DNA of 64,000 nucleotides from NCBI GenBank assembly GCA_004123355.1, contig SCHM01000003.1, forward strand, positions 3,491,058 to 3,555,057, read 5' to 3'. The stretch's first letter is position 1, and each line of letters begins with the position of its first letter. Source of the DNA: Amphirosellinia nigrospora. Lineage: Eukaryota > Ascomycota > Sordariomycetes > Xylariales > Xylariaceae. Below the pieces are notes generated by a model. It had not been told where the DNA came from, made no database searches, and was given only the letters and a program-made list of their open reading frames with translations. Of this stretch, positions 1-47,692 are shown piece after piece. The position numbers were made by a program, and so were the translations under genes.

Positions 1-498
1 CCATAGTCGGCCAGCGCGCTGTCAATCTCGGATAGGATCAACTGTCTTTCAGGGTTGTCATCGCGGCGGCTACTTCCTAGGTGAAGAGGTTGAGTCTCTT
101 CTTGGTCAACCTTCTGCAGCCGCAGCTCGAGCTGAGAAAGCCTGTCTTGCTTCAAGAGTAGGAGCCGAGCACGTAGCAATGAGAAGCGCCGGTAAATGTA
201 GAAGGAATCGTGGGACGCGATTAGTGCCGCGAACCGAGGATAGCCGGGGGGTGGTCTTCAACTACTATAATGTCAACAGTCTTCTCTTTTACCGCCCTTC
301 AAGAATACCGTACTGACTCTGCGTCACGGAATCGGTAGGCCCAGCCGGAACAACAGATAGAATGGTAGCTTGGAGGCGATTGGACCACCTGGCCAGGTTT
401 CTGCACAAAGCCGACAGCCCATTCACAGGACTGAGCTGCTGATGCAGAAGATGAAGGCCGATTCCGTCTGACCACGTCATCCTGACACGGCATAGCAC
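1..498 (-). CDS. DUF6594-family protein, N-terminal part (cut by left edge)
   Basis: Reading the minus strand from 255 down to 1 gives one open frame with the conserved N-terminal block of fungal DUF6594 proteins: GYPRFAALIASHDSF, then YIYRRFSLLRARLLLLKQD, a coiled-coil-like stretch, and LGSSRRDDNPERQLILSEI close to the window edge. Family members usually continue into C-terminal membrane helices, which would lie outside the window; their function is unknown. The 5' end is uncertain. A frame starting at 498 and ending at 293 can be joined to 255 through a 37-nt GT...AG intron (256-292), giving a join that reads EGRPPPGYPRF. That join is in frame and looks natural, but the intron is very short and the residues before it are not ones I recognise. 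The family call is firm, the first exon is not. Confidence 0.72.
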
Positions 499-1028: not shown

Positions 1029-1296
1029 ATGGAGGGCGTCCCAAGATCCAAAAGTATCCTGCGGTACGAGGACCAACATGCGTATTCAACTGCTATAGCT
1101 GATCAAGAGACAGCAACCCAAGTTTCGGCCTAATGACGAGGTGTATATACAGAAAGGGAGCGCACCCGAAGGGCCTTACACTATTGCTTTGGTGGAGGGT
1201 ACGAAGTGTAAACTCTGTGACAGGAGCGGCAATCTGGTCAATAATGGAGCCTTTGTCGAGGAGAGCTGTTTACAGTTGAAAGATCCTTTTCAGTAA
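1029..1296 (+). CDS. Small SH3-like (KOW-like) fungal protein, one frameshift
   Basis: An ATG at 1029 opens a frame beginning MEGVPRSKSILRYEDQH. After one apparent single-base shift near 1117-1122 the protein continues PKFRPNDEVYIQKGS, GPYTIALVEG, KCKLCDRSGNLVNNG and ends LKDPFQ at the stop at 1294-1296. The pattern resembles a recurrent type of roughly 90-residue fungal hypothetical protein: a basic N-terminus, then 'KF..ND.VYI...GPY.IA.V....Y.LCD..G..V..G'. It looks like a small five-stranded beta barrel of the SH3/KOW kind; fold and type are inference from the hydrophobic pattern. The function is unknown. It is convergent with the caspase gene, its stop lying about 22 nt from the caspase stop, so the two transcripts probably overlap at their 3' ends. 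The track-length breakage comes from the frameshift, which I read as a sequence error. Confidence 0.6.
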
Positions 1297-1317
1297 TTAA
1301 GATGATCACTGCTTCTT

Positions 1318-3314
1318 CTATATCGATGTTTGAATAATGAATGTTTCAGTTTCCCATTCTTCTCCGTCCGACTCCGTGTCACCTCGGATGCTTTGCGATA
1401 ACTTAGAGAGCAGTTCAAGGATACTGTTGGTGCTATTAGTCCCGCGTTGACCGACTCCAGAATCGTCCACTGTGATTTTGTCTTGAACAATACCCGCAAA
1501 TAGAATGGGTCTGTTTGTGACGAACGTCTTCAAGATATCTTTGCAGTTGGGTTTGCCTTGCATGCGTACAGACCCAGGAACATCCATCTGCAAGGGCACT
1601 TCCCGCCAGCCAGCAGTATTTCCCTCCCGTGGTGGTACTACGTAGTAAGAACCACCGCCTGAGTCGGACACCAAGTTCGAGATTTCCCAAGAAGATGTAA
1701 GGTTGAATATATAGAAAAACAAAGGTTGGGATCGTGTGTTTCTTACGGTAAGATTCCAGGTTTCGCCATGAGTGGCCTTGAACGTGCCATCCTGCCCAAC
1801 AGAAGCGCTGCATGAAAGATCGTAAGAAGCTCGAAACGCCGCATTCGGAAGACGGTTCTCGATCCCTTCGAAGACCTTGAACGAACTCACATGTTGCAAG
1901 ACACGTAGAATCTTGGCTGCTGCTCCAGGGAGGTCCTTTGGTACTGTCGGGAGGTCATGAAGCTTGTCACCGAGCGCATCAAGTATCTCGTAATGGTTGT
2001 GCTCGTTGATCCGTACAACGAGACTGAATCTCTCAGCTCTACTTGAAAGAACAGGATAGACGAAAAGCAAATCTTTGATGGCAGCGTGATATTCGTGGTC
2101 TTCACTGAGCTCCTGTGGAACGCGGACACGAATGTTATTTGGAGACGCTCGTCCCACCAGTTTCGCGCTCCAGCCCGTTGTGTTAGTTACTTACTGTCTC
2201 AGTCTGACTGGCTGCAACAGCAACCATCTCGGATGTGAAAGTTCCCACGTCAGAAACTTTTAGAACCGTGTACATTGCCTGTTCACTGGTGTCAGATGAG
2301 ACAACCGCAAATTCGTCACCCGGTGAGATGCCGTGTGCTAGCCCTGCCTGTAAACGCAGTTGACCCCGCCGCCGCTCGGTAGATAGGGACGAGTTTGGGA
2401 TCTTCTCTCCGAATGAGGTCACTGAAGAATGTCCTGTACTTATTTCCATACAGCATTGGCGTTTGTTGAGGCCATAAGCAATGAAATCTAGCACAGAGAT
2501 GAGCATGCAAGGTCTCTTGAGCGACAGATCTCCCGCCCGCCGTTTGAGCATCTAGTATCTCAAAGTAAAGATGTGTCAAGGCTCCCATTCGTCCGTGCGC
2601 CCCAAGTCAACCTCAAACGCCCGTTCATACGGCCCACATGCAGAAAGAATTGTATACCCGTCGGGATTGATGATCCAGTCCTGCTGGGTGGAAACACTCC
2701 GTGGGGCTCTCTGCGAGATCAAGAACTCCTCGAACTCCTCATCAGCAGCCTCGGCAGCTAAGGCGGCGACATTCGATTTGTAATCGACAGTCGAAATAGC
2801 AAACGTAAGTTGGTTTTCATGACGTGGCACACTCCCGGAAAAACAACAGTCGAGTAGAACAGTAACGACGAGACCCTTGTCGACCATTGCTTGAGAGCGC
2901 TGGCTAGGTGGCGACCTCGGAAGTAGCTCTCCCCAATTCGTCGGCTTCGAAGAGGACAAGCGCCAGTTCCTCAACGGCTTGCGAACCCTGCCGTGCCTCA
3001 CTGAGGATCCGCGTGCCGTGGCCCGAGTAGTGAATATAGACCAAATCCCCATGATTTGCCTCTTTGATGACTCTTTTCAAGACTTGGATCACATTCAAGC
3101 GGTTGGGCCAAGACGAGGCTGCTTCCACCGGCACGCCCGAAGTAACATCGGACGGTGTAGTCGCAGTTAAAGTGAAAATGCGAACAGGTGTTTCTCTACT
3201 CTCCAGATAGCCCTTGACAGCATTCGCATCTTTGACGCTACCTCGAAGAGATCGGTCTGTGGGGTAGTAGTCTATGCCGATGATGATGGCCCAGTGATTG
3301 GTTGCCTCCACCAT
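1318..3314 (-). CDS. Caspase-fold peptidase C14 protein, several frameshifts
   Basis: The ATG at 3314 starts MVEATNHWAIIIGIDYYP, the first strand of a caspase p20 domain. The catalytic His lies in LVYIHYSGHGT and the catalytic Cys in VTVLLDCCFSGS, so the dyad is canonical. Further blocks follow: YTILSACGPYERAFEVDLG, then ALTHLYFEIL and PQQTPMLYGNKYR typical of the fungal p10-like part, then GLAHGISPGDEF and a long C-terminal region ending WETETFIIQTSI at 1318. That overall order and length (about 650 residues) match fungal 'caspase domain' proteins rather than canonical metacaspases, which carry a Pro/Gln-rich prodomain. I count about five small shifts (near 2908-2935 twice, 2583, 2355 and 2160-2200); the last could be a short intron. 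Because conserved residues flank every break I favour sequence errors, but true decay is possible. It is divergent from the TPR-CHAT gene, which suggests joint control. Confidence 0.75.
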
Positions 3315-3830
3315 GACCGTTGGGGGTATGTCAAAGTTGGATCTGACTTATTACGGTTGTCCAGAGCGTCTGGTGTTGGAGAGGGCAGCAAAATGGAATA
3401 TCGAGCAATCGGTCCGAATGCCTATGGCCGTGTGCTAATACCTAGGTGTAGTAGACGCAGTAGCGATACGGAACGCCGTGGCAAGGAGAGCCCCGCGGCA
3501 AGGAGAGCCCGAAGGTGCTGCGGCTCTCACCAATTTGTTGTGTTCTAAATGGGGTGGTATTCATGTTGCAGAAGGATTGGCTCGACCCCCTAGTAGGTTG
3601 CCTTGTGGGAGCCACCGTGAGAGGTAGACTTTACCTATACACTGTCCCTCGCATCTGCCTTACCCTCACCCCGGATTTATGAATATCCGGTCTGCAGGTG
3701 ATATCGAATCGGGTGGGCGAAGACCATGCTGTATTACATACTCCTCACGGTTCCGTACTCTGATTTGATTCCTACTTTTGCTCCTTGCACTTTCACGAAG
3801 ATAAAACGGTATCAATTGATCGACGCCACT
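3315..3830. promoter_or_regulatory. Shared divergent promoter, caspase / TPR-CHAT
   Basis: About 515 nt separate the two divergent start codons (3314 minus, 3831 plus). No conserved coding frame is visible. The interval holds a 14-nt direct repeat (GGCAAGGAGAGCCC at 3480-3493 and again at 3497-3510) and one CCTAGGTG word near 3440. A bidirectional promoter is inferred from the geometry alone. Confidence 0.5.
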
Positions 3831-6800
3831 ATGAACAACCCCCAGCAACTAAAGCAGCCTCCAAGAAACTCCTACAGAGAAGTAGATCTAGAAGACACGA
3901 TTGAACTCGACGAAGCCATTCAGCGACTTCAAGGAGCTGTCGACGTGACTACGGGCGACACGCCCAAAAATGCAAGTATTGAGTAATCTTGGATTGAAAC
4001 TCAAACAAAAGTTTGAGAAGACTCACAAGCTGTCCGATCTCGAAGATGCCGTACAGGCGACTAGAACCGCCAGTGTCATGGCAACAAGGATACATCAGAC
4101 CAGTGAGACGAACCAAGAGGCTGCGCAGGACAATGCAACCATTCTCTACAATCTGGCCCTTCTTCTCGAAACGAGATACGAAGAAGAGAAATATCTGACA
4201 GACATAGAAGAAGGTATTGGGATGATACGAACGGCTCTGAACATAGCAAGGAGCCTCGCCCCAAGGGCAATGTATTTGATCTTCCTTGGTAGACTTCTTT
4301 ACAAGAAAGCACAATTTTTTACACGAATTTGCACCCGCGAAAATCAAAATCAGTCCTGGAGGAAGCCATTCGCGTCACCCATGTTGGCTTCATGATGATC
4401 CCAGAAGGTTCATCCCAGGCAGAGCCCTTGGGTAACCTGGGAAAATATCTCTATGCCAGATACTCCAGGAGCACAAAGACGATCGATGACTTGAACGACG
4501 CTATTAGATTCACCCGAGCAGCCACCGAAGTGTCCTTGGAGACTAGTTCGAAAAAGTCGCTGTATATGTCCCGATTAGGACATTATCTTTCTAGATACTC
4601 ATTCACAGAAGACGATGCCGACCTTGAAGAATCCATTGAATGGATACGAACTGGTATTGACAACATGCCACAGCCTCTGGACTATTCAACCAGATCCCGG
4701 AGGCTCGCCGCTCTAGCAACGCAACTTAGACTCAAATATGTGAAAACCCAAGCCATGTCAGACCTTGATTTGGCGATTCAATTTTCGAGGGCAGCGGTTG
4801 ATGAAGCAACAATGGAAACCCAGATAGCCAGACTTAGTGATCTTCAAACACACGTTCTCAGGAAATATCTTGATACGGACGCGATCGCCGACTCAAATGA
4901 CCTGATCCAAGTAAGTTGGAAGCTCATCAATCTTGACGACTCGGAGCGAGCTAGCAGCTTCAGAATCCTTGCAACTCGTTTTAGAGCAAGGTATGGAAAG
5001 GCTGGAGAAATGTCCGATCTTCAAGAAGCGATACGCCTCACACGAAAAGGGATTGATGAATGCGATGGGGATGAGTGGGATAAAAAAACTCGTCGAGCAG
5101 TTAGAAGTCTTTCATCGTGATATAGTCCTCGGAGTTAGGTTGACATCAGACTTGAAAGAAGTCGTCATCCCGATTGCCCATGCAGCAATCAGGCCAGAGG
5201 CCACTCTGGTTGAGATGGAGAAGCTGACCAACTTCCTGGCTCATCTTGGCGATCTCTGCTTAATGATGGACACTGTTCGCTTTAGTGAGCAAGTTCTAGA
5301 AGCAGTGAGAGCGGTTTTCGAAGTCATCCCGACAAACCACCACGCTCGAGTCCCGGTTTGTAAGTATCTCGCAGACAGCCTCGTGGAGTTATTTGAACAA
5401 ACCTGGCACATTGAGCCTCTCAGTGAAGCCATTGCGATCTTGAAGGAGACAGTTAATATTGCGCCTGGGGCAGCTTCGGGAGAAGCTGAATCTATGCTGA
5501 ACACTCTCAGAGACTGTCTGGACCGTAGATATGAAGAGACCGAAGAGTTGGCCGACCTCCAGGATGCTATACATGTTTTGAAGTCGACTCTGCATTTAGA
5601 CGCAAACAATCGTCGAGCTCAGTTTAATGTTTTCCTCAAACTTGGATCCCACTTGGCCGATGAGTTCAAAACGACAGGGGTGTCGGATCGTCTCGACGAA
5701 GCAATCAATTTTACCAAATTGGCTATCGACAACGCTGAAGAACAGAGCCTTCTACGACAGGCCTCGATACAGCTCGGAGTTCTCCTCGGTGTGAGATATC
5801 AAACGAGTCACGTTATGGTTGACCTTGAAAACGCCATTCGACTGGTGCGAGCTGAAGCAGAAGTAACGAAAGGGTACTTGAAAAAAGCTCCTATTCTGAA
5901 CAATTTAGGAATGCTACTTAGTGAAAAATTTGCCGCTACAGATTCTATTTCCAACCTTGAGGAGGCCATCCAAGTCACTCGAGAAGCTGTAGAAGGTACC
6001 GTAGGAGGCGCCCGCCAGTCGCGGTACTTCAATAGTCTCTGCGTCCATTTGTACGCTCTGTTTCTGAGGAAAGGGTCAATGGCGCACCTGGAGGAAGCCA
6101 TCCGCATACAACGAGCCGCTATAGCTAGAGCTGTACAAGATGATCCTGAAAGGCCGCACTATTATCTTTACTCGCAAAATGTCTCTATCTCCGATACACG
6201 GAAATAGAGATCGAGCCAGATCTAGACGAAGCGATCCAACTATCGAAAATAGCAATGGATGAGATCTCAAAGGATTCACCCTTTACATCAGATAACCTGA
6301 TTACAGTTTGCAACTGTTTTACCAAGAAATTCGAGAGAACGGGCACAAAGGCCGCCTTGACGAAGCTTTGCGCCTCGCATATAATGCGCTCGAGGCAGCG
6401 CCAGACGGGAATCCGAATCGAGCACGTACGTTGCAAGTTATCGGTGATAAGCTGAGTGATCTGTATCGACTAACAGGGGAGCTTTCGTACCTTGATAAAG
6501 CCATTGGGTTCGCGGAAGACGCGGTTTCCATAACTTCAGGGGGGTGACCATGTGGACGCTCTAAACGATCTTGCGCTTCATCTTTCAGAGAGATACAAGA
6601 AAACCAAAAAAATAGTCGATGTTGAGGAAGCTCTTCGCCTAACGCGCATGGGACTTGAAGCTTCACCCATTCAGAAGAGAGTCATTAGTCTAAAAAATAT
6701 CGCGCTTTACCATCGCGATAAGTACGAGATAACCCGGACAATAGGCAGCCTAGACGAAGCCGTTCAAGCCGCCACGGCCGCTGTTAACGGCACACCTCAA

Positions 6801-8624
6801 GACCATCCAGGCTATGCCGAGGCCTTAGGAACCCTCGGACAGGCTTTGGAGGAGAGATATAAATGGACACATGAAGCCTCTCAACTCAAAAGAGCTATTG
6901 AAAACCACCAATTGGCCCTCCGACAGTCTAATGCGCACGTGCTTACTCGTATAGAAGCTGGAATTGATGTTCTAAGATGTTGTGCTTTGGTTTCAGACTG
7001 GGAACAAGCGTTCGAAGCTGTACTTATTGCCGTTAGTTTGGTTCCCACACTTACCTTACGGTCTCTGAAAACTTCCGACAAGCAGCATATTCTCAGTAGT
7101 GCAGCTGGCTTAGCCTCTGATGCTGCTGCAATCGCTTATAAGGCGGGCAAGGAGCCGTATGCCTCGCTGAGCTTACTTGAGCAGGGTCGGGGATTGCTCG
7201 CTACCTCCCTCGAAGAGATGAGAACAGATGTCCTAACCCTACGGGATAGATATCCAGATCTAGCAGAAGAGTTTGATCGTCTGCGAGGAGAACTGAGTCA
7301 CCCAACCACACAAGGCGAGAGGTTGCAAGTTCGCACAAGCCTGCCCTATGAAGCAGATAAAGCATTCGATCAGCTACTGAGCAAAATTCGTAGCTGTCCC
7401 GGTTTTGAGAGTTTCCTCCTAGCCCCAACCAAAAAGGACATAATGCAGACCGCGGCGAGCGGACCAATCATCGTGATTAATATCAGTGAGTACGGCAGCC
7501 ATGCCATCTTGGTGGAGCAGGACCAGATCCGAGCGCTGCCCTTGCCTAATCTTCACAGCAGCGACGTCGATAAAAGGAGTTCGGAGAACGAATTAGGGGC
7601 ATCCCATATACTTGCATGGCTTTGGGATGTCGTCGCCAGGCCGGTCATGGACGCACTTGAATATACAGCTTGCCCCCCGTCAAAACGCTGGCCGCGTGTG
7701 TGGTGGGTTCCTATCGGCTCTCTCAGCAGATTTCCTCTGCACGCTGCTGGACGTCACGCGCCAGGTTCAAACGAAACGGTAATAGACAGAGTAATGTCGT
7801 CATACAGTTCATCTATCAAGGCCATCATCCATGGCCGTCAACGACCTATGCAATCAAAGGCTGCGCCTTCGGTACCGCCGCGGGCGCTGCTAGTCGCCAT
7901 GCAGGAGACCCTGGCCACACCCCGCTACGCTTCGCGAACGACGAGTTGAGGATTCTACGTGATATCTGCAAGGATATCCCGTTCGACTGCACCGATCCAG
8001 GTCAACAGAAGAGCGACATCATCGCGCAGCTACCCTCCTGTAGCCTTTTCCACTTTGCCGGGCATGGGTGTACGAACGGCATAGATCCGTCCAAGAGCCA
8101 CCTCGTAGTGTCGGACGGCAAAATCACCGTGGCTGATCTGCTAGACATGAACATCCGGGAACGCTCCCCGTTTCTTGCTTATCTCTCAGCTTGCGGCACG
8201 GGTCGCGTCCGGGACGACCGGTTCCTCGATGAAAGCATTCACCTCATCAGCTCCTTCCAGCTCGCGGGTTTTAGGCATGTCATCGGCACTCTCTGGATGT
8301 AAATGACAAGTCTTGCACGGAGATGGCCAAGGTGACATACGGGGAATGCGAGAAGGAGGCTTGACTGACTACTCTGTTTGCCTCGGGCTGCATAATGCTT
8401 CCCGAAAGCTGAGGAAGAGTTGGCTGGAGAAAGAGGGGCAGGTGGGAGTAGAACACAGACATCAGCCTCGAGCGTGGGATGAGAACGGCGTCACAGAAAA
8501 TATAGCGAAGGAGCGAGGGGCAGATTTGGGACAGTCTAGGCATGTGTTTATTGTCGAAAGTGGCGAGGGGGTCAAAGATAGAGAATCCACATTCTGGATA
8601 CCATATGTTCACTTTGGAGTTTAG
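3831..8624 (+). CDS. TPR-CHAT protein (tetratricopeptide array plus caspase-like CHAT domain), many frameshifts
   Basis: From the ATG at 3831 the protein is an array of about 18-20 degenerate TPR units of some 45-50 residues, each with a core like DLEEAIRLTRAA followed by a Y/RY helix (examples: DLNDAIRFTRAA, RLDEAINFTKLA, NLEEAIQVTREA, DVEEALRLTRMG). The C-terminal third is a CHAT (Caspase HetF Associated with TPRs) domain: WVPIGSLSRFPLHAAG, then FANDELRILRDIC, the catalytic His in LFHFAGHG (about 8044) and the catalytic Cys in LAYLSACGTG (about 8180), then GFRHVIGTLW. The tail after a shift near 8297 continues DVNDKSC and ends FWIPYVHFGV at 8624, as expected for the family. I read about eight one- or two-base shifts (near 3965, 4335, 5085, 6178, 6344, 6540 in a G6 run, 7917, 8297). 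Both catalytic residues survive. Probable role: protease effector or scaffold triggered through the TPRs (inference). Confidence 0.85.
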
Positions 8625-9576
8625 CAGGTAGAAGTAGATGAACTTGATCCAATGGCCGAGACAAAAATAGAGTGATCCATATCACCCCCGGTATAATGCC
8701 TAGGTAGGTATCGTGATTGATTTTCCTCCTTTTAACACGATAAATGATGCACTGATCTGATATAATAATATTCGTAGATAGTGTTAGATGAACAGCAAAT
8801 TCATTTCTTAGAGTTACCTAGGTAGGTAATCAAAGGATCACTCAATTAATCACTCAATCAATCATCAGCGCGAGGAACCTCTGTAATGGTTGACAACCTT
8901 GTCCTGAAGATTGTCAGCCACGAAACCTGCGCTGCGCCCGTAGATCGTCCTAATCATTCGTTCGCTTGCCTTAGTTGACGGTTAAAATAGGCTGGAACCG
9001 GTTTGAAAGTACTAAGGACCTCCTTCCGTTTGAGATGCATTACTATCTGCATAATAGAATGCATAAATTTATTAGTACTACCTACCTAGCCTGTCACCTG
9101 ACTGATAACTGGCTCAGCCGAGCCTGAGCAAATGCGGCAAATGCGCTAAGCCCAATTTGTTGCGTGCTAGGAAATTGGTAAAACCTATAACCTAGAAGTA
9201 GAAGTAACTAGTACCTAGGTACAAACACTCCAACCATACATCGAGGCTTGCTACAACCTAGGTAGGCGAAGTAACTAGGTTAGTGATATTTCCTCAACAA
9301 ATATAAATTTATAGCTAGGTAAACACGAAAGCATTTGGAATCGACTTTCGACTTTTTAAAGGAAGCATCACTTTCGAAAACCATATAAACCTCCATCTCT
9401 AAGGGCATAGACTTGGCACTTAGGCTGTCAAGTTTTACGTTAAGCGGTTGCCGATTCGAACACGGTCGGGATGCAAGCCGCTACAGAAAAGGAGCAAGCC
9501 CCAGGAAACCAGTAAAGGTCCCAAACAGGGAAACAAAAGATACAAGATCAACCTTTCTCTACTAAGAAGTATACTA
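8625..9576. other. AT-rich intergenic with CCTAGGTAGGTA words
   Basis: No supported gene. The palindromic word CCTAGGTAGGTA or parts of it occur near 8700, 8816, 9082, 9211 and 9256. A near-tandem AATCACTCAATCAATCA stretch lies around 8840-8863. Confidence 0.5.
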
Positions 9577-9777
9577 ATGGATATCACATGTCTTAATATC
9601 AAGGACCATAAGCTCCAACATATCAACCAATCAAAGTTTCTCCGCCTCGTCCGCGACCAACTCGCGATACATCACAGCGAAGACGCAGACTACGTCCCGC
9701 TCTATTTGGCTGGCTTACCCGGGCGCTCTTCAAGGTACGGCTTTCCTTTCACGGGTATACTCTTGTCAAGGGCATGA
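9577..9777 (+). CDS. Unrecognised short ORF
   Basis: A 66-codon frame starts MDITCLNIKDHKLQHINQSK and contains an acidic patch HHSEDADYVPLYLAGLPG. The composition looks protein-like (amphipathic N-terminal half), and the frame is open upstream of the ATG as well. I do not recognise a family. It could be an exon of a larger gene or a relic; no splice partners are obvious. Confidence 0.2.
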   Translation: MDITCLNIKDHKLQHINQSKFLRLVRDQLAIHHSEDADYVPLYLAGLPGRSSRYGFPFTGILLSRA

Positions 9778-10152
9778 ACGGCCCGACATTTCTTCAGGGA
9801 AAAACATGTACCCGTCTGTCTCGGCAGGGACAGCACTCCCATCCTGATAATTTCCATTGATGCTTTTTTTTTTTTTTACATAGCTCGACTGTTAGGACTC
9901 GAGAGAGCGAGGGTCCTGGAATGATCATAACTTTTCTGGTTCGTATATCGAATAATATTTTATGTATAACTACCGTAGTCGTAATAGTATGAGTGGACAC
10001 TCTAATCAGGCTGGTTAAGCACGCTGATACAACTCGCAGGCTCTGCACATAGTATTCCTGCCAACTCCGCCCCATCGCTTCGATACAGCCCAATCGCCCT
10101 CTGTGGCTCTAATTCGTCGTGCTAAACGGATTGCAATAACCATTCTCGCCTG

Positions 10153-10338
10153 TTAATTCTCTACCGCGACCAAGAGACGCCCAAGAGCGCACTGGGCAGC
10201 GGCGCTATCCTGCTCGAATCGTTCCTTTAAGACGCGAACCTCGGTATTGGTCTTCGCAGGTGTAGCAGACATGGACAGGCCGGTGATAACGTGAAGAATT
10301 TCTACGTATGGACCAAATGTACCATCCTGGTTCTCCAC
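10153..10338 (-). CDS. Unrecognised ORF downstream of ARG1
   Basis: About 60 codons on the minus strand containing GPYVEILHVITGLSMS and TEVRVLKERFEQDSAAAQ, ending at a stop at 10153. The composition is protein-like, but it has no clear start and I recognise no family. It lies 3' of ARG1 on the same strand, so it may simply be ARG1 3' untranslated sequence or the last exon of an unresolved gene. Confidence 0.2.
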   Translation of the reverse strand: MENQDGTFGPYVEILHVITGLSMSATPAKTNTEVRVLKERFEQDSAAAQCALGRLLVAVEN

Positions 10339-10540
10339 TGCGTTAACTCGAGTATCGAATCAGGGCTACCCATCCTCTGTATCTCTTATGTAAGGACGTC
10401 GCATCGCGGAAGGTTGTGTTTTGTACAGAAGCTGTTAATATCCCACCATTTGTGCCATTTCTCATGTTTTCCCATGCCTGCCCTGACCCCGCAGAACCAA
10501 TCTTGCTGCGGATATGCCAAACCCGTCATATACATGGTAA

Positions 10541-12847
10541 TTAGGACTTGGCGAGGGGTTGACCATCTTGATCTTTTGCTCGCCGTACTTCTTGAGACGG
10601 ATAGCCTGGATGGCAATGAAGCCAGTGGTGTCCATGGGAGAGAATCCTTCGAGGGAGTCCATGGATGCATCCTCCTGGAGTACAGGTTGGAAGCGTCGCT
10701 AGATCGGCCGAGAACGTAGGCGTTGCCCTTGTAAGCGGATAGTCTGACGACACCAGTCACGTTGTGCTGGCAGAAAACAACAGAGTTCTCAATCTAGTAG
10801 TTTGTTAGCCCGCCAGCTTTAGATTTGAAGTCGAGATACTTACAAACTCGCGCTCAGGGCTGAAGAACATTCCATTGTACAAAAGACGAGACCAGGTCAG
10901 GCTGACAAACTGATCCCTGAGCTCACGGACGCGGCCGTCCATGACCAAGCCCTCAAGAGACAAGTGGGCCAGACGGGCGACTATACACAGTCAGTACTGT
11001 TTGCATGTCTAATTCTTTGGGCACAAGGGGCTGGCATACTGGTCAATCCTGGGGTACTATGACGCGAAAGTCTACATTAGCTACTATAATTACGTATAAA
11101 GGGAAGGGGAGTTTCAAGTTCAAGTCATCACATACTCGTAACAGCCACTATCCAAAGTTAGTAATAATGGTCTAAGAGTCCAAGGGAGGAGGGGTAAGAC
11201 TCACCGGCTCTTCAATCCGATGAAGCGATTCTCAACAATGTCAACTCGTCCAACGCCGTTTTCATAACCAATCTAAATTGTCATTAGGTAGCTGTTCCAC
11301 GCCAAATGCCAATTGTTCGCGATCAAACGTACCTGGTTGAGCAACTTGAAGGACTCAACGGAATCTGTGGCCTCCTTGTCACCGACAACAACCTTGGAGA
11401 TAAGACTGGTGTTTTCATAAGCATGGCTGTGTAAATTAACCTGGAAAACTAACATACCCCTTCTCGAAGTGGACAGAAAACTCGGTAGACTGGTCAGGAG
11501 CGTCCTTGGGATCCCTGAGAAGTGTGAGTTTAACAGACAACTAAACAGGCAAGATGAAATCTTACTTTGTTCGGTCCCAAAGTTCCTTGGGTGGTGTCTG
11601 GTCGGATCCTCAAGAATACCAGCCTCATACGACGAATGCACAATATTATCATCTTTAGACCATGGTGCCTTAGGGTCGATGAAACAGGGATGTTGTTCTC
11701 GCGGCGAACTTGAGAAGGTCCGCTCGGCCTTGAAATCGCTCAATGAACTCGGGGATCCGCCCTAGAACATGCTTATCAGCAATATTTATTGCAATATTTG
11801 GAAGCATTGCAAACATACAAGGAGCCAGTATCTTAATGGATGGTTTCAGCGCAAGAAAGGCGAGCTCGAATCGAACCTGATCATTTCCTTTGCCAGTCTG
11901 GAAATGGTGAGTAAGCACCCCAAATATCATCTTTCGCAAAGGGATTTACTTACTGCGCCGTGGGAGAGGTAGTCACAATTGTACCTATTAAACATATTAG
12001 ATTGAAAATCAAGAAGGCGAACATTAGTTATATCCAGTCGAAAGATATACATAACCAAATCTGTTGATTATGCCACATTCGCGCCTTTCCTAGCATCCTG
12101 TTGAGCCTCCCGCTTGTTCTTTTACCAGAGTAGATAAATTTATTTCCAGTGAAAAAGCAAGAGACAGGCTCAACTAGGTAATCCAGGAGCCGGGCATACA
12201 GATGGTGCGCAACCAATAGACAGTCGCAAATACCCTTTCCCTCTTAAAGACAAAACGAACAAGGTGAACTTCACGATACATACTTTTCAGCGACTCTGAT
12301 CATTGATTTCGCGATTATGGGCCTAGCTAGGGCAGTGCCGAGCAGGTATTGATCCTCAAAGATGGCGTTGCACATAATGGCACGGCTGACAACATCGTCG
12401 ATAAGCTCCTTCTGAAGGTTCTCAACGACGAACGCTTCAGCACCGAGCTAGAAAACAGTAAGCAAACATTCTTAGAGAATAAAAAATAAAGTAGACCGAT
12501 AAAGGAGTGGAAAGGGCAGAAAGTGGCAAGAGGAGAGTGTGGTGTTGGAGTCTGACCTTCAGAGCTTTAGCCTCAACGGCGGCGAAGTCCTCGATCTGGC
12601 CGACATCTCCGAGGTAACAAACAACTTGGTAGCCCTGCTGGAGAAGCCAGACCAAGATCTATTAAAAGCGATAATGTCAGCTTGCAAAACGGAGAAATCC
12701 AAGGCGTAATTGGAGAGTGAGGCTAACGGTGGAGGTGTCAAGGCCACCAGAGTAGGCGCTAGAGGAAACGGAATGTTAGCAAACATTATTGACGATGAAT
12801 TGAGGGATCGAGGAGGCACTGACAGACAGACACGGCCCCTTAGACAT
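10541..12847 (-). CDS. ARG1: Argininosuccinate synthase
   Basis: Catalyses ATP-dependent condensation of citrulline and aspartate to argininosuccinate, the penultimate step of arginine synthesis, in the cytosol. Exon 1 is tiny (MSKGPCL from the ATG at 12847) and splices into [10 protein letters not shown], the PP-loop ATP-binding motif. Next come [126 protein letters not shown] and a C-terminus GQPLAKS at the stop at 10541. The gene is split by about nine introns, all GT...AG. At least five single-base shifts interrupt otherwise perfect family sequence (two near 11700, one near 11610, one near 10685, one near 10560). I treat these as consensus errors. The 5' leader carries a tandem duplication immediately upstream of the ATG. 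Confidence 0.93.
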
Positions 12848-12855
12848 GATTGCGG

Positions 12856-12909
12856 GTGTCAATCAATCTGGATGTGTTCTTGGTGTCAATTAATCTGGAC
12901 GTGTTCTTG
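12856..12909 (-). repeat. Two 27-nt tandem repeats in the ARG1 5' leader
   Basis: Two head-to-tail 27-nt units (12856-12882 and 12883-12909) differ only by two C/T transitions. The first unit begins nine bases upstream of the ARG1 start codon. On the coding strand each unit contains AATTGACACC or GATTGACACC. A role in translation or transcription of ARG1 is possible but unproven. Confidence 0.8.
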
Positions 12910-13548
12910 GTGTGTGCGTGTGCGGTGATGTGGTTGAGTTGTGGTTGAGTCAAAGATTGGCACCGATTGCGCGGGGGTGGAAAAATCTTTGGCGGGGTGA
13001 GAGAGAGGTAGCATGTTGGAACGGACCCTCCCTGCACAGTATCTACCTAGGTAGGTAACGGGAGAGTCAACCTTGAAATTGATCGATTGGCCCCCGTTAT
13101 TTAGATTAATTACCTTAAGACATTTTGTCCTGCCGTTTAATAAGAACCTTGAAGATGCCGTAATCTCTAACAATCACATGCTTTGACCATCAAACTAGGT
13201 ATTGCTATCCGAAGTCCCGTATATCTCTAGGTAGGTAAGGTATCTACTCCCCCGTCACAAACGCCAGGAAGCAAGCAACCGAGCCAAGTCAGGGTGGCGT
13301 AGTTTAAAGTGACAGGTACCTAACAACTTAAATGGTCGGTTAGTACATACCACTTGTTTGCGTATTCTGAGGTTGATGTCCAACGAGTCTTCCCCCAATC
13401 TCATTATCCTGAAATGGATGCCTATGGTGCATAATTCTCATCTGTTAACAGCAAGAAATATTGGGCTCATGCGATTCAATATATTAGGCCAGTATCAACA
13501 GGACCCATCCACCAGGATACGAGTAAGATGTCTCATAACGACGATATG
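12910..13548. other. ARG1 upstream region
   Basis: No supported gene. It should contain the ARG1 promoter and the 3' region of the transporter gene. CCTAGGTAGGTA words occur at about 13046 and 13228. Confidence 0.45.
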
Positions 13549-15077
13549 CTACCCTGTCTTACCACTATCCGCCTTCGGCCGAGTAGGTACTTGTGTCTTC
13601 TTCTTCTTCGAGTCTAGAGAGTACAAGCCCCCAGCCGAGAACACCACCACGGCTCCCACCAATGTCCCTGTCGCAAGGCGATTGCCGAAAAGCCAAATGC
13701 TCAGCAGCAGACTCACCAACTTGCGTATATTTAACACGATTGTCACAGTCAGTGCCGAAGACTCTGCGGCCAGAAGATTGACGCCCCGGATACAAGCGTA
13801 CTGTGTGAGAACATTGAGTGCCAAATATGTTACCTGACTGGGAAAATAGACGCCCTCAGCAGCCTTTCGCCAGCCTTCTGGTAGAGTCATCAAGCTCGCT
13901 TGGTCTATTGGTAATCGCAACACCAGTGGCGGGCTATCCACAAGACGCGTGAATTGACGAACCAGGGACTTCGTGAACGGAAGAAACAACGGAAGTGAGA
14001 GTAAATGCGAATAGAATAGGTTCTCCTTCCATTGAGGTCCATATTGCCTATACGTCTCCTCCGTGTACAGGCCCATTACTGCTGACAGGGCTTGGGCAAC
14101 GAAGAGAATCCCGAGACCTGTGCTAAAGCTTGGCGTTGACATCTCGTGTGATGGCTCACTTGCGGATTGCTGTCGGTGGTGTTAGTGTACACGTCATCAA
14201 TCAGTGCAGGAAAAAGATTTAAACTTTACCTTGGTTTGTGCATCCGACCAAGCTGCCGTTATGACGCCTATTGTTAGTAACACCACGGCGGTGACCTGAA
14301 TTCGTGAGTATCTCTTGCCGTATAAGCTGCCGGCTACTATGGTAGTTATACTACCGCCAGAACGCAAGATGATATGGACAGGAACTGAGATATCATAACT
14401 AAAGGCGTGGTTGTTGAGCAGGTTGATGCCGAAAAAGAGCACAATGTTTATCAGCCAGCGTCGAATAGGAACCCGATTGGGCCTTATGAAAAATGGGGGC
14501 CTAGTAGCATCAAACTGCGAGACATATCCTGTGACTGCGACGAAGAGAAATTGCACAAAAGTCAAAAGCGTCCCTGTAAGAGCCATGTAGTGAGTGTCTA
14601 TCCGGATACGAATGAGAATCAAGACGAGGTTAGTGTCATGAACATCGTACCGCTCGCTGGTTCAACCCTATGGAACGGTCAGGAACATTTGATGTTGAAA
14701 GAGCGAGGCGGGTAGGGGCCGCGCTCACTTAACGATAGCCTCGAGGGCAAAAACCTGTATTGGCAGCCGTAATCAGCTACCGCCGAGCAAAGAATAAAGG
14801 ACGGGTTTGAACCCACATTAGAGCAACATCCACCAAAAATCAGTGCCAGCATAGCGCCGACGGTGAGCCACTGCGGGATAGTTTCGATGAAGATGCGGCC
14901 GGCAAGGCCCACGAGCTTGGAATGGGTCGATCGTTGGTCGTGTATGCCGTAGAGCTCGGCCTTCTCAAGGGAAGGCGCGGCATTGATAACCTTGGGCGTG
15001 ACGGTGGCGCCATTGCGGGCAACAGCGTGCGATTCACGCAGAGTCTGACGCCTTCGGGGAGCCGAGCGGCTCGTCAT
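13549..15077 (-). CDS. YEA4: UDP-N-acetylglucosamine transporter, UAA/YEA4 family
   Basis: A multi-spanning nucleotide-sugar transporter of the drug/metabolite superfamily, expected in the ER or Golgi to import UDP-GlcNAc. From the ATG at 15077 comes a polar N-terminus, then WLTVGAMLALIFGGCCSN, FALEAIVK after intron 1 (14755-14816), a short exon reading VEPASGTM, then LLTFVQFLFVAVTGY, the hallmark LLNNHAFSYDISVPVHIIL and RSGGSITTIVAG, GKRYSRIQVTAVVLL, and after another intron the second half with ILFVAQALSAVMGLYTEETY and YACIRGVNLLAAESSALTVT, RKLVSLLLSIWLFGN. It ends with a basic, lysine-rich tail at 13549. Length and motif order match the fungal family. I see no frameshift, so the gene looks intact. 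UDP-Glc/Gal specificity cannot be excluded from sequence alone. Confidence 0.88.
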
Positions 15078-16767
15078 TTTGGCGAGGCCGCAGTTTCGCA
15101 GCGCGTGACGGCGAGGGAGTTAGGTGGACAAGGTATTAGTTAAGCGGTAGGAATGCGATATGAGCTGTGCTAATGTCTAGTTAGCCAGGCTGCGTGGTCA
15201 AGTAAACATGCATCGGTTCACCTGGAAGAGGGGGGGGATATCTTGTTGTATCTGTTATAGGTAGCGTACCATGCCTCGAGGTGGTTATCGAAAGGTAAGG
15301 TAGGTTGTTTCTGCAACACCCTGTCAGCGCAATGTGTGTAAGTACGTGAAATCCCCAAACGCCCTCCCTAACCTTCGACCCTCGACCTGGTATCCTGGAA
15401 TCCTGGTATGCTGGTATCCTTCCTTGCGCTACACTTCTAGGGACATGGATTGCGAGTACCAGAATTTGAGCTCAGGGCTGCAGGACGAGATGGAGGATGA
15501 CCCGGAAACTTGAGGTTGCGGCAATGAGTGGGCGATGAGGTACCTGTCTATGTGGCTTGATCGCGCCCTGTTTAAATTTCCTACCCAGGTAGGTAATAGG
15601 TACATATGTTGGCTCAGCGGGTGCAGAGCGGGTACCTTGCCGACGGGATTTAAGACGCGACTACCTTGGTCAGGCTAGGGTGGCCAAGGTTTAAAAGACC
15701 GCGATCTAAATATACAGTACCTTGTGATACCTACTACCGACTTCTAAACCTTATCCACAAAACTAGCCCTTCATGGCTTTTCATAGCTGTTTAGGTACTG
15801 ATATTACTACTAACGCTGGGTAGATACATTCACCTATCAAGGAGGTAAGTACTAAATGATTGGTGCATGTACTGGTGGTTTAGCAAGTCGGGAATTAGCG
15901 GGCGTATCAATACCAGACGTATGTAAGCCCAGCCGGCTATCGAATAGTGCCAGATGTATGGCTATAGCTCTCTTTTTCGTGCCACGGACGCAAAGAAATC
16001 ATCAGGCGAGCTCTAGGTAGATTCATAGCAAGACTGTCAGGCACAGGAGAGTTATGTATTTTAATAGGGACCATATAATGACAATGCCATTTCAGCATAC
16101 CTAAGGCCCCAAAACGGCATCTACATAGTAGCATCAGAGGTAACAGCCTCTTTTCGTTCCTAGGGGACTACTATGTGAGACTGGGTAAAACAGGGAGCTT
16201 CTTTGCAGCGAACTGCTCAAAACATGACTAAGTCCATTCACAAAGTCTTTGGTAATCCTAGTACTTTATCTGTACTGCTGGTCTGTCTTATGTCTATGCT
16301 ATTGAGGTAAGGTAATGATGACAAGGTTGTGCCCTCTGTCCGGAGTTGTCCCCAAATGGAATCACTGTACCCCCCCATACGTCTGTTCTACCTCGGTTGC
16401 TATACGTCTTCCCTTTTTTAATTCCGCTACCCTCTTGGCACATGTGGCGTGAGAGGAGCCGAGCATCCCCATCTTATACGGCGCCTCAGCGTCATGGAAT
16501 AACATCATTTCAAATGCGACGTGACAGCTATCATTGGACAAGGTAGAATATTTGTCGCCGTATGGGCTAAAAAGTAGCTTAGGTTATCAAACGCTAGAGA
16601 CGGTTCCTTGTGGTAGTGGGTCGTGAATCGGTAGGAAGGGGCACGGCCGAGATTATTTCTACTGACACTTGCGAGGCAGACTGACACCATTCATCCTCTG
16701 ATGAGGTGGTAGCTGCAACGTCGCATGACGAGGGAAAGGGACGGGACAATACATCCATTTCTCGCTT
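15078..16767. other. Intergenic region, no supported gene
   Basis: About 1.7 kb between the transporter start and the CDC55 stop. Short open frames exist (for example 15937-16134 minus and 16346-16546 plus), but none has a conserved motif or plausible splice neighbours. A CCCAGGTAGGTA word lies near 15584. Confidence 0.5.
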
Positions 16768-18602
16768 CTACAGCGCAGAAAAGACAAACAGCTGTTTCTA
16801 GTTAGTTTCTTTCAAGTCCAACCAGAGCAGGAGACAGTGTTAGCCAAGACTTACGTTGTTGGTTGCAGCGATTGCGATGCTGTCTTCGAAAGGATGCCAG
16901 CTCATGTGCAGAATCTTCTTGTTGAAATCAATTTGGTCTGCGTCAGTCTCCTTTCGCATCCTCTGACCTTGACCTGCCCCAGCCGCCGGACTACCTGCAC
17001 GTGACCCCCCTTTTTTGCCACCATTTGTCGCCGTAGGGCTTGTTGATGAATTGATGGGCGTCGGTATGCCGACTTTCTTCGCTTTGAAAGCCGACTTATC
17101 GGCCTGTAGAACGACTTCTGTCTCTTTCTCCGGGTCCGAGGGATATATCATGAAGTTATTGTTATAACTTCCCGTCATGACATTCTTGGCATCACCGGAG
17201 AAGACAACTTCGAACTTGTCAAAGATGCTATCGTTTTCATAAGTATCGCATAGCCTTGGCCGAAGATGTTCGTGAATGGGTATCGTCTTCACCGGCTGCC
17301 GTTCCATGTTGACATCCCATATCTTCACGGTGAGGTAATCTCGAGATAGAATGTATCTACCATCATGAGAAAAGCGCACATCAGATATAGAAGATATGAT
17401 CTCTGAGAAGAACGATCTTGACGAGGGATCTTCTTCCTGTTCAAATACTAAATGTATATCAGCAAAGGTGATCGCCATTATCGGGGGAAAGTCTAGTCAT
17501 ATCATACACTTCGCGTGCTGGTCACAGAGGGCACTCTCTCGCATATCGGCGAGCTTGATAGTACCCTTCGAGCTGGCGTACATGAACCAATTGCAGCTAA
17601 CGGGGTGAAATTCAGCGGCAGTTATGACTTCAGTAAGCTCTTCCATGTTTGCAGGCTTGATGTCCACGATGTTGAAGCTCTGATCCTGGATGTTCAAATT
17701 CCACAGGTTGATGCGTAGATCATCACTACTTATAAAGGTTTCACCGTCACTGTTGACACTGATGCTATTGATATGATAGGCATGAGCGTTGGCGTAGGTG
17801 CGCCGAGGAACAGCAGCCACAACCGTATCATGGTGTGTTAGGCGTGGGAGCTTGAGTTCTCCGGGTTCTTGAACTGCATCGGTGGAAGCGGCCGAGGAGT
17901 TCCACCGCCTGCATTGGCTATGTTCCCTGGTGTGACATCTTGTGACAGGTTATTCTCGCTACCACCTTAAGCGACTTCTCGAAAACCTTCCAGAGTTTTA
18001 TCGTCTTGTCATTGGTAGATAGGAGGTAGTGTGATGCGTTTTGACGACGACACCAAATTTTGTTGATCTTCTCTTCGATCTCCAGGGACTTTAGATAATC
18101 GAATTCTGGCTCGTGTGACTGAAATTCCGTGTGGAATTTGTACTCGCAGGTTTTTTTCTACAGAAACGTTAGAATAGGATCGATCGTAAGAATCCACTAG
18201 GAGCGGTGAGGTGGTTCTAGAGCGACGTAAAACTCACGGTTTCGTTCCTCTCAAACAACACAACTCGCCCTCCTTTGTCTCCGGTTGCAAGGTAATTGCC
18301 TGTATGGTCGAACTCGACGGTCGATATGATATCAGCTGCAGGCGCAAGTGTCAGTTAAGGCACTGGATAAGAAATCAAAGTAGTGGACCATGCCGGATTG
18401 ATTCGAGTATCGAGGTTGTGGTGAGACGGAGGAGGTGGCACACCTTCTGTTATGTCCTCAACATCGCCCTTGTCACCGAAACACCTGTATGAGTTAGCGC
18501 ACGTAGTGCGAGGCTCGGCACGGAAACCTGGCGGGGAGTAGGCTGTAGAGGGAGGTGCACGAACTGGGTAAATTTCCACACTGTCGGATCGGCGTCGGCC
18601 AT
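16768..18602 (-). CDS. CDC55: Protein phosphatase 2A regulatory subunit B (PR55/CDC55)
   Basis: WD40 beta-propeller subunit that directs PP2A to substrates in mitosis and morphogenesis. The ATG at 18602 starts [13 protein letters not shown]; exon 2 follows with [13 protein letters not shown], then [77 protein letters not shown], the family signatures [19 protein letters not shown] and [65 protein letters not shown], and a final exon LFVFSAL ending at 16768. A Gly/Ser/Ala-rich insert (about 17040-16960) is typical of filamentous fungi. Two single-base deletions, near 17965 and 17870, break the frame in the least conserved loop; both look like consensus errors because strong homology resumes immediately. 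Confidence 0.93.
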
Positions 18603-20621: not shown

Positions 20622-21658
20622 CCAAGATATCAAGCTGTCGTGTATTTCACCTCGGATTCGGCAACAGTTGGGCATAACAATGGCAGGTTTGGGTTCGTTG
20701 AAACCTCCGATAAACAATCGCTATTGCTCACTCTAGTGGTCAATTACTACCAGGGCTGGATGGACATTTAATGAATGAACAATGCTTGAACTTCCAATGA
20801 TTACATCATACCCCTGTTGCTGCGACTGCGTACAGTTATGTACCGAATTTAGATACCGCCTGGAACAATATATACTTCTTCGAAGGTATTGAAGTGTGTA
20901 GGTATCTATCACAACACCTGGGCCTCTACCTACCGACCTTCGACGATGATGAATTTCCAACCCCAATTGATTCTACCTACCTGTTAGGTAGTAGCCGATG
21001 CCCCAATACAAATTATATGCATATATACGTATCCGCTATCAGCCCTGATGAATTGTGGCAGGTGCCGGACCTGACAACATTGCACATTCCAGGTTCCGGG
21101 CACCTAACCTACCTAAACCCTACCTACGGTAGGCCCATGCCTAAGGTATACATACCTACCTACGGTGGAATGGGGTGTCCCTAGCAAAGCAGCGGTCACT
21201 ACCTACCTACCCTGTACAGTACTAGTACACGCAAATGTCCGTAAATAAACCTGCATTGAGGTCAATTTTTTAGCAGCAAATCGCATTAATCGCAATCAAG
21301 ATAATCACCGGCTGCAGCAGACGCTGTTACGCCATACACTTTTTCCTACCTAACCTGTGCCCCAAAAACTAGCAACTCCTCGACTCGATCCTGTCACAAT
21401 ACCTTGGTGCACTGGTCCTCTCGCCGCCCATCCAGGGAGAGTCTTCTGCCCACATTCAATTTCTGTTGAGCTAGACTGTCTGTGCATCTGTCCCCGTCGT
21501 CTTGCGTTCGCTTGAGCCAATAGCCTCACGCCTAGCAAGGTAGGCTGCAAAAGACGTAGAGAGTTTTATATTGCCCCCTCTACGCAAACCGGATCGCTTT
21601 TTTTTTCCTGTTGAAATTGGGCCTGCACCTTCCTCTCTTGTCTCTTGTGTGACTTACC
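20622..21658. other. DNM1 upstream region
   Basis: No supported gene. It contains a dense cluster of CCTACCTA/TAGGTA words between about 20980 and 21210 and a T10 tract (about 21599-21606) just upstream of the DNM1 start, as often seen in fungal leaders. Confidence 0.45.
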
Positions 21659-24252
21659 ATGGCTGCTCTCGGCGATGACCTGTTGCGTGTTGTCAACCAG
21701 CTCCAGGATCTGGTTTTTAACACGATCGGCTCAGATTCGCTCGATCTACCGCAAATCGTATGTCATGCGCCCTCACCCTCGCCCTCGCCTTCGCCCGCTT
21801 CTAATGGCTCTTATGCTTACCATGTTGTCTGTGCTCTTAGGTTGTGGTCGGGTCCCAGTCCGCCGGCAAATCTTCCGTGCTCGAGAACATGTTGGCCGAG
21901 ATTTTCTCCCCAGAGGAAGTGGCATTGTAACAAGGCGGCCTCTGATTCTACAACTGATTAACGTCGAGGAGGATGAATCCGAACCAGATTCGCATGCGGC
22001 CTACCGAAATCCCACGCAGGCGCGCCGCGGGGAATGGGCCGAGTTTCACCATGTTCCCAGTCGACGCTTCACTGACTTTGCCGACGTGAAGCGCGAAATC
22101 GAAAACGAGACGTCCCGAGTCGCAGGTTCTAACAAAGGCATCAACAGACAGCCCATCAATCTCAAGATATACTCGCCTCATGTGTTGAATTTGACCCTCG
22201 TTGATCTCCCAGGTCTTACCAAGGTTCGCTCTGCCGACCCTCAACAGAGCTGCAGCGACTAATCATCGATGTCATAGGTTCCTATCGGCGACCAGCCGGC
22301 AGATATCGAAAAACAAACGCGAACGCTAATATCTGAGTATATTGCCAAACCAAACAGTATCATTCTAGCCGTCTCGCCAGCGAACGTCGACATCGTCAAT
22401 TCGGAAGCTCTGAAGCTTGCTAGACATGTAGATCCCTTAGGCCGCAGAACTATTGGAGTGCTTACGAAGGTCGACCTGATGGACCATGGAACAAATGCCC
22501 TGGATATTCTGTCTGGCCGGGTCTATCCTCTGAAGTTGGGCTTTGTTGGGTGGTCAACCGGTCACAGCAAGATATCCAAGGCAACAGACCAATGGAGGAT
22601 GCTCTCAAAGCGGAAACAGAATTCTTTCGCCATCACCCAGCATACCGAAACATTGCGGCACGATGCGGCACTCAGTTCCTAGCAAAAGCACTTAATCAGA
22701 CACTTATGGCTCATATTCGGGAGCGTCTGCCAGACATTAAAGCCCGCCTCAACACTCTGATGGGGCAGACGCAACAAGAGCTTGCGAGCTATGGGGATAT
22801 GCATTTCAGTGGGAAAGAACATCGCGGATCCATGATTCTCCAATTGATGACACGTTTCGCTACGTCCTTCATTTCATCTATAGATGGAACGTCAACAGAG
22901 ATTTCAACCAAGGAGCTCTCTGGTGGCGCAAGGATCTACTACATTTTCAACTCAGTGTTTGGCAGCTCTTTGGAATCGATTGATCCTACCTCTAACCTTT
23001 CTGCTCTAGATATCAGGACTGCCATCCGCAACTCTACTGGTCCACGACCTAGCTTGTTTGTTCCCGAGATGGCGTTTGATCTACTCGTGAAGCCCCAGAT
23101 CAAGCTACTAGAGATGCCGAGCCAGCGTTGTGTCGAGCTTGTGTATGAAGAACTTATCAAGATTTGCCATACTTGCGGATCAACTGAATTGTCACGTTTT
23201 CCAAGGCTCCAGGCCAAACTTATTGAAGTTGTTTCAGATTTATTAAGAGAAAGACTGGGCCCTGCGTCAAGCTACGTTGAATCTCTGATCTCTATTCAAC
23301 GTGCTTATATAAACACAAACCATCCAAACTTCCTAGGGGCAGCTGCTGCAATGAGTCATGTTGTTGGTGCAAAGCAGGAACGTGAGCGAAAGAGACTTGT
23401 TCAGGAAGAGAGAGAGAGGCGAGAAAAAAGACGAGTTAAAGAATTGGGTGCGAATGGTACTGATGTCCCGGAAGATGACGACGAAGCGACCCATGAGAAG
23501 ATCGACCTATCCCACCCTCGGAAACATTTACAAAAAGGCTCACGAAGCATGTCACCTGCTGTTCGAGAGAACGGAGCTGGTGTTATAACGACTATAAATG
23601 GTGTACGGTCGAGCTCACCGAGCCTCAGCGCTCAGTCGGTTGGCAATACACGAGACTCATTCCTAACGTACTTCTTTGGCAAGGATGGTGCGAATCAACC
23701 ATCAGGCGCCGGCGCTCCTTCGCCACTTCCACGCCACGTTAGCCAGGCAATGGAGCCAACCTTTAGCCAGAGCATTCGACGTGGCGAAGATAAACCGCCG
23801 TATCGGCCTGCGCCTCCTTTGATCCATGATGAAGAGAGCCCAAAAACCCTGGTTTGGCCCAACTTCTGGGTTTGGCTCACAGCTGGTAAGGCAACCTCTA
23901 TTCTTTGCATACTTGTACCAGATCTAACATGTAACTTTAGGGTGAAAATGTAGAACCAGCTCTAACTGATCGAGAAGCTATGGAAACTGAGCTCATCCGT
24001 GCGCTCATTTCGTCATACTTTAATATTGTCCGCGAGTCGATCGCTGATCAGGTTCCAAAGGCCGTTATGCATCTGCTTGTTAACCATTGCAAAGATGTTG
24101 TACAGAATCGGCTTGTGAGTGAACTGTACAAGGAGACTTTGTTCGAGGAATTGTTGTACGAAGACGATGCCGTTAAGAAGGAGCGCGAAAAGTGTGAAAA
24201 GATGTTGGATACATACAGAGAAGCGGCCAAGATCATTGGCGAGGTTATATAA
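21659..24252 (+). CDS. DNM1: Dynamin-related GTPase DNM1 (mitochondrial/peroxisomal fission)
   Basis: Large GTPase that constricts mitochondria and peroxisomes. Exon 1 (21659-21757) reads [19 protein letters not shown]. After intron 21758-21840 comes the P-loop [16 protein letters not shown], then [29 protein letters not shown] (G3), intron 22224-22277, [16 protein letters not shown] and [11 protein letters not shown] (G4). The middle/stalk domain follows, then a Ser/Gly-rich variable insert with [12 protein letters not shown] and [17 protein letters not shown], intron 23886-23940, and the GED domain [20 protein letters not shown] ... [20 protein letters not shown] ending at 24252. The [18 protein letters not shown] block marks the Dnm1 rather than the Vps1 subgroup. 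Three frame breaks (near 21889, 22548 in a G run, and about 23845 before the last intron) are read as sequence errors. Confidence 0.92.
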
Positions 24253-47017: not shown

Positions 47018-47612
47018 CTCTCTCGGGATAATACGTAGGCCGCAGCCAACCATTCCATAGGCGCTGGCCACGGCCTAGCCGGTGACAGCAGCCTTTATAA
47101 TAGCCCTGTGCCGCTTGTGAAGCTGTATCGACAAGGTGGTGGCCATGGTGAGGAGTGAGTTCTCGCGATACTATCTATGTTTTGACCGATCCTGGAGTTG
47201 GCTAACCAGCATCAGCTCTACCGGATTATAAGGCATGCCGGCCAAAAGACGCCGAGTCTAGGGTAACGATTCGCCGCCCAAGCGAAAAAAGAGATTAGAT
47301 AACCTGATTTTCACTGTTAGTGCGGTTCATATAAGAAGAGGAGGAGGAGGGGAGGTGAGGCTGAAGCATTAAGCTACAACAGTACGGTACTGCCGTGTAC
47401 AGTGCAGACTTCCATCCAGTACACCTAGTGCAGCTTACGATCAGGATGATAAAGGTATTAAGTCTTTTTGGAATCTATGTGCTGTGGTCAGGACTGTAGA
47501 ATTGTGATTGTACCGTTTTTTTTTAATGGTAGGCTGATTGATTGATTTATAATCTCGAGAACACTGTATGTTAGTTATATACCTATTTTGAGGTAATAGC
47601 ACTAAACTCAAT

Positions 47613-47690: not shown

Positions 47691-47692
47691 GA

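Follow-up and report, generated by a model that had tools for sequence, protein, structure and literature searches.

The 64,000-nucleotide stretch of the Amphirosellinia nigrospora genome analysed here (C5:3491058-3555057 of a 48.1 Mb genome in 11 contigs; hereafter the window) carries near its left end two divergently oriented protease genes, one for a C14 caspase-like protein and the other for a long TPR-containing protein that ends in a CHAT protease domain. An initial annotation of this DNA had placed the two genes head to head across about 0.5 kb, and the Pfam matches, the catalytic motifs read in both translations and an ATG-to-ATG distance of 516 bp bear this out. That description is nevertheless only partly confirmed and needs two corrections: neither reading frame is open in the assembly, and a second C14 gene lies just outside the left edge of the window, about 2.5 kb from the first. 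The features of the locus are listed below, where L011 denotes the sequence to the left of the window and L-numbered pieces carry their own coordinates.

3831..8624, + strand: TPR-CHAT gene; some 22 TPR-like units (counted by eye) precede the CHAT protease domain; about 9 frame switches
8042..8299, + strand: CHAT catalytic region; GHG His at 8063-8065, SAC Cys at 8192-8194
1318..3314, - strand: C14 caspase-like gene; GHG His at 3020..3018, DCC Cys at 2845..2843; 4-5 frame switches
3315..3830: gap between the CHAT and caspase start codons, 516 bp
L011 8057..6447: second (upstream) C14 gene, Pfam E 5.2e-8; first exon by eye, to about L011 8358
1..257, - strand: N-terminal end of a DUF6594 gene, which extends leftward out of the window into L011, as far as about C5:3490450; Pfam E 3.1e-30
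1117..1296, + strand: small gene, convergent with the caspase gene and head-to-head with the DUF6594 gene

The small gene and, beyond it, the DUF6594 gene, which the initial annotation had recognised, sit between the two C14 genes, and the whole group, with the upstream C14 gene and the CHAT gene at its ends, extends over about 12 kb. An AMP deaminase gene (Pfam E 4.4e-171) flanks the locus on one side and pieces of an argininosuccinate synthase gene (E 3.1e-6) flank it on the other. We read the locus as a small accessory-gene group set between these two genes, in a genome whose content, for example at least 151 HET matches, points to a filamentous fungus.

The TPR-CHAT protein

The CHAT profile (PF12770) matches the window at 7661-8299 on the + strand with an E of 4.1e-14 (53.2 bits against a cut-off of 24; profile positions 101-231 of 289), and a match to the N-terminal part of the domain at 6534-7946 falls under the cut-off (20.5 bits against 24). 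Both catalytic residues are read directly, and they line up with the His and Cys of a solved bacterial TPR-CHAT protein, which we take to be Csx29, in an alignment whose overall score is weak (E 0.24). The resemblance to Craspase, in which Csx29 is joined by the type III-E effector, lies in the combination of TPR repeats with a CHAT domain and in the aligned His and Cys, whereas over the catalytic part the two proteins are only weakly similar. The fungal locus also differs in having no CRISPR effector: a gRAMP/Cas7-11 partner would not be expected in a fungus, and no search aimed at one was made.

The gene spans 1,597 codons. The TPR array reported for it stands in so far as about 22 units can be counted by eye (a loose motif count gave 27, including false hits) and the gene shows internal self-matches, consistent with a repeat array; it was not recovered at the curated Pfam threshold, since the TPR_10 matches score 19.3 and 17.3 bits against a cut-off of 27.5. 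With the repeats taken from inspection and self-matching, the CHAT domain is joined to superstructure-forming repeats, as in fungal gasdermin/CHAT clusters. A SAVED domain had no Pfam match in the six pieces of the CHAT gene scanned, which left about 120 nt at its start and about 320 nt at its end outside the scan. NB-ARC likewise had no Pfam match in the window pieces scanned; no genome-wide NB-ARC search was made.

Scans of prokaryote genomes and viral contigs returned 125 and 20 pattern-matching stretches, respectively, and no relative of the CHAT piece was confirmed among them. These scans are weaker than they look, since the first ~86 residues of the query (window 7661-7918) were outside the CHAT frame and supplied two of the six search peptides. 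Structure prediction without relatives was uninformative (mean predicted local distance difference test scores, pLDDT, of 35.5 and 38.0). The window protein is a fungal TPR-CHAT protein of an already known kind; judged by its family only, it probably acts in cell death or a non-self response as a protease that is set off by a trigger.

The C14 caspase-like proteins

Pfam Peptidase_C14 matches the window at 3347..2907 on the - strand, covering the p20 part (E 3.2e-11; 43.8 bits against a cut-off of 21.4), and the His (GHG) and Cys (DCC) motifs can both be read directly. Beyond the protease domain, a C-terminal region of some 290 or more residues has no Pfam match. The protein shares the C14 p20 fold with type I metacaspases, and metacaspases are its closest solved structures, the best being MCA2 (E 3.4e-9). 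It differs from them in that no N-terminal proline-rich prodomain was seen, the domain starting at most about 10 residues from the first ATG (an upstream exon is possible), and in that it is only 27-29% identical to the three metacaspase-like genes of the genome.

A Peptidase_C14 profile search of the genome gave seven matches at six loci, two of the matches being in one gene. Three of the loci (L013, L014 and L016) are metacaspase-like, with a mutual identity of 63.5-75% between pieces. The other three are divergent in sequence and comprise the window gene, the upstream gene and L015, so that both C14 genes at the CHAT locus belong to this group; the p20 part of the window protein is 34.8% identical to L015. 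At L013 (4132-9717), the metacaspase-like gene is followed within about 4 kb by a gene that, by eye, resembles one of the nucleoside phosphorylase type.

The small gene and DUF6594

The small gene was initially described as SH3-like, a label that found no support in Pfam or the PDB. It has no Pfam match, and its two matches in the PDB were read as unrelated, the better (E 6.6e-4) being to a 5,898-residue bacterial grappling-hook protein in which no stretch passed alone. One further copy, 42% identical, was detected on C1; the copy number given here is a minimum. Both copies stand head-to-head with a DUF6594 gene at about 1 kb (875 and 1,083 bp). Since DUF6594 matches in the genome number 24, merging to 16 loci, the chance of the second copy lying so near to one of them is about 9e-4, or 2e-4 when orientation is included.

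The recurrence of the head-to-head arrangement at both loci suggests that the small gene goes with DUF6594 and not with the proteases, and the two may form a recurrent two-gene unit. The proposal that the small gene encodes a substrate of the CHAT protease was rejected, as it found no support and the gene's apparent partner, at both loci, is DUF6594. No literature on DUF6594 was found. The second copy of the small gene is at L023 8143-8301 (C1:13311142-13311300), with its DUF6594 gene at C1:13312383-13313235, and the same locus contains pieces of a protein kinase, an ankyrin repeat protein and a DUF7580 protein.

Broken reading frames

The initial annotation had not noted that the CHAT and caspase genes are both interrupted in the assembly. 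A coding path that forces a frame along the strand at a switch cost of 8 (costs of 6 and 10 were also run) required 9 switches in the 4,791 nt of the CHAT gene, 4 in the 1,996 nt of the window caspase gene (5 by eye in a three-frame print) and 3 in the 1,854 nt of the upstream C14 gene. One possibility is that the CHAT and caspase genes are both decaying pseudogenes, and the number of breaks, none at an evident intron, is what such decay might leave. Conserved genes in the neighbourhood, however, are broken under the same method: VPS10 has 6 switches in 4,612 nt, VPS1 has 5 in 2,597 nt and AMP deaminase has 8 in 2,711 nt. Among controls named by eye, a RanGAP-like gene has 2 switches in 1,358 nt, a WD40 gene has 2 in 1,141 nt and a mannosidase-like gene has none in 1,851 nt, while a PP2A-B-like gene has 3 in 1,498 nt and still keeps one stop. 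Introns account for some of the control switches, as with two in VPS10 that are separated by 55 nt; counting true breaks only, the controls are therefore somewhat less densely broken than the CHAT and caspase genes. Run on the opposite strand of these ten stretches, the method called for 4.85-7.34 switches per kb.

Two further observations argue against decay. Pfam profiles run on across frames in the conserved genes, with Sortilin_C positions 1-84, 76-138 and 137-167 matched in succession in VPS10 and Dynamin_N positions 19-118 and then 115-168 in VPS1. Moreover, the paths through the CHAT and caspase genes are both free of in-frame stops at switch costs of 6, 8 and 10, and at a cost of 10 evading a stop by two switches is dearer than keeping it. 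Several breaks, by eye, fall at homopolymers of six or seven bases. Since conserved neighbours (VPS10, VPS1, AMP deaminase) are broken as well, assembly indels explain the breaks better than pseudogenes do; an indel-prone assembly is the simplest reading, and we consider it very improbable that both genes are decaying. Claims of pseudogenes or fusions from this assembly need corresponding care. Conserved genes with frame breaks, at about 1-3 switches per kb with introns included, are found at window 21653-24249, 24664-26021 and 48418-53029 and at L011 2010-4720.

Co-location of CHAT and C14 genes

Both protease families are rare in this genome. A CHAT profile search gave two matches and a protein search added a third CHAT-like place on C8, for three loci against the six for C14. 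When the six C14 and three CHAT loci were placed uniformly at random in a genome of 48.1 Mb (200,000 trials), the probability that any CHAT locus would lie within 5 kb of any C14 locus was 0.0037, and a CHAT locus with at least two C14 loci inside 15 kb arose in 3 of the 200,000 trials (1.5e-5). A CHAT gene beside two of the six C14 loci therefore exceeds uniform random placement. The C8 place (L025 8205-9542, C8 ~664095) is 47% identical over the N-terminal part of CHAT (E 4.3e-5); the gene there has a low coding signal and an open piece without a Pfam match, adjoins a PUF gene and is possibly decayed.

Nevertheless, the genes may be together by chance, or as accessory genes that gather in a tolerant gap between housekeeping genes, with no functional link among them. 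The DUF6594/small-gene pair seems to be an independent unit in the same gap, which suggests that unrelated genes do gather there. In addition, uniform placement ignores the clustering of accessory genes and the pair was picked after being seen, so that the placement figures overstate the case, and no C14 match shares a stretch with either of the other CHAT-like loci. The placement probabilities nevertheless tell against chance, and we think an absence of any functional link unlikely.

Possible function of the locus

We tentatively propose that this accessory locus encodes a TPR-sensing, triggered CHAT protease for which the best partner candidates nearby are the C14 proteins encoded next to it. 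The sequence itself shows the domains, the catalytic motifs, the order of the genes and the scarcity of both families in the genome; precedents in fungi and bacteria, described below, also speak for the proposal. By analogy with known fungal CHAT systems, the long TPR array would sense a non-self or stress cue and would hold the C-terminal CHAT protease silent until triggered, whereupon CHAT might cleave a partner and so bring about regulated cell death or growth arrest. The C14 proteins could be that partner, as proenzymes that CHAT switches on, or could act as parallel effectors; that CHAT acts on them is pure inference.

Several observations weigh against this proposal, in addition to those on placement above. 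The frames are broken in the assembly, so the intactness of the CHAT and caspase genes is itself deduced, and the gene neighbourhood was examined in this one genome. The third sequence-divergent C14 gene (L015, C4:5241803) has no CHAT gene nearby. None of the 35 NACHT matches in the genome lies within 200 kb of the locus, and neither does any HET match among those listed (150 of 240 candidates scored; at least 151 matches in the genome), the closest listed being at C5:3225317 and C5:3787003. The locus thus lies outside any recognised NOD-like receptor (NLR) or HET cluster.

Alternatively, the TPR-CHAT protein may be a protease of the ordinary fungal sort, one that activates a gasdermin or acts in incompatibility, with the gene for its substrate at another place and separate roles for the C14 neighbours. 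The original work on the CHAT/gasdermin system of Podospora anserina is reportedly that of Clave et al. 2022. A 2025 review states that a TPR-bearing CHAT protease activates a gasdermin in this species (PMC12881547), the two genes forming a cluster (PMC12881547, PMC10197012), and another gives 19% of fungal gasdermin genes as lying within 10 kb of CHAT genes (PMC10197012). In Aspergillus fumigatus, one of the two unlike alleles of hetB is described as encoding a CHAT protein of 1,327 residues with a role in heterokaryon incompatibility (PMC11138114). That paper claims the first proof for a CHAT protease in heterokaryon incompatibility; to the earlier work it attributes a serine protease and a survey of genomes (PMC11138114). 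Set beside the reviews, its account indicates that the sources disagree on how firmly CHAT-gasdermin control had been shown before. The view that fungal CHAT proteins are largely unstudied is, on these accounts, out of date, and the assignment of the locus to cell death or conflict fits both the protein families and this literature (PMC12881547, PMC10197012, PMC11138114).

The present locus resembles the P. anserina cluster, as the reviews outline it, in that a TPR-bearing CHAT protease and a putative effector are encoded together in a small gene cluster, and differs in that caspase-like genes adjoin CHAT and no gasdermin was recognised. It shares with hetB a large fungal CHAT protein, whereas the incompatibility role there is reported from genetics and the locus here is known from its genes. 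A search of L011 4300-9901 and window 8500-17000 (open frames of at least 55-60 residues, Pfam on ten pieces and a coding map) brought up no recognisable gasdermin-like gene, a weak negative as no fungal gasdermin model was applied. An ordinary CHAT protease also leaves two divergent C14 genes at one place unexplained. We regard this alternative as possible, if somewhat doubtful.

A more specific version of our proposal is a eukaryotic two-step cascade, in which the TPR-sensing CHAT protease would switch on one or both of the adjacent divergent caspase-like proteases, giving a fungal caspase-cascade death pathway apart from metacaspases and gasdermins. In bacteria, the target of the SAVED-CHAT protease is reportedly the caspase PCaspase (Steens et al. 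2024). SAVED-CHAT is described as conferring immunity via a proteolytic cascade (PMC11229360). As in that system, a caspase-like gene stands beside the CHAT gene here; unlike it, the sensor is TPR and not SAVED, the organism is not a bacterium and the case is made from genes, where the bacterial work reports cleavage. Bacterial caspase-nuclease (canu) loci, in which another gene partner is activated by the caspase, also place a caspase gene in a small defence cluster and include TPR domains, but are described without CHAT (PMC12799240), and no nuclease partner was recognised here. No fungal CHAT-C14 pair was found in the titles and abstract openings searched. A bacterial precedent and the gene order in the fungus hint at a CHAT-to-caspase cascade, which we judge quite improbable in its full form; the interpretation offered in the initial annotation, that of a sensor/effector protease cascade, is partly supported. 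If CHAT does activate its C14 neighbours, fungi would have an initiator-effector caspase pathway laid out as in bacteria, and ideas on how caspase cascades arose could be put to the test in a genetically tractable eukaryote. Regardless of the cascade, the locus offers a CHAT protein with candidate partners adjoining it, along with a DUF6594/small-gene pair found at two loci.

Other features of the region

The argininosuccinate synthase match is spread over many short pieces across about 2.5 kb (window 10156-12700, - strand), a pattern that errors in the assembly or degradation of this copy might explain. A further match, to the C-terminal part, is found at C1:547229. To the right of the CHAT gene, the one unassigned open frame, at 9424-9774, has a sub-threshold Pfam match to baeRF (E 0.046) and no PDB match. 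A tRNA-like call with a two-base anticodon at window 47612-47691 (+ strand) is perhaps an intron-bearing tRNA or a false call.

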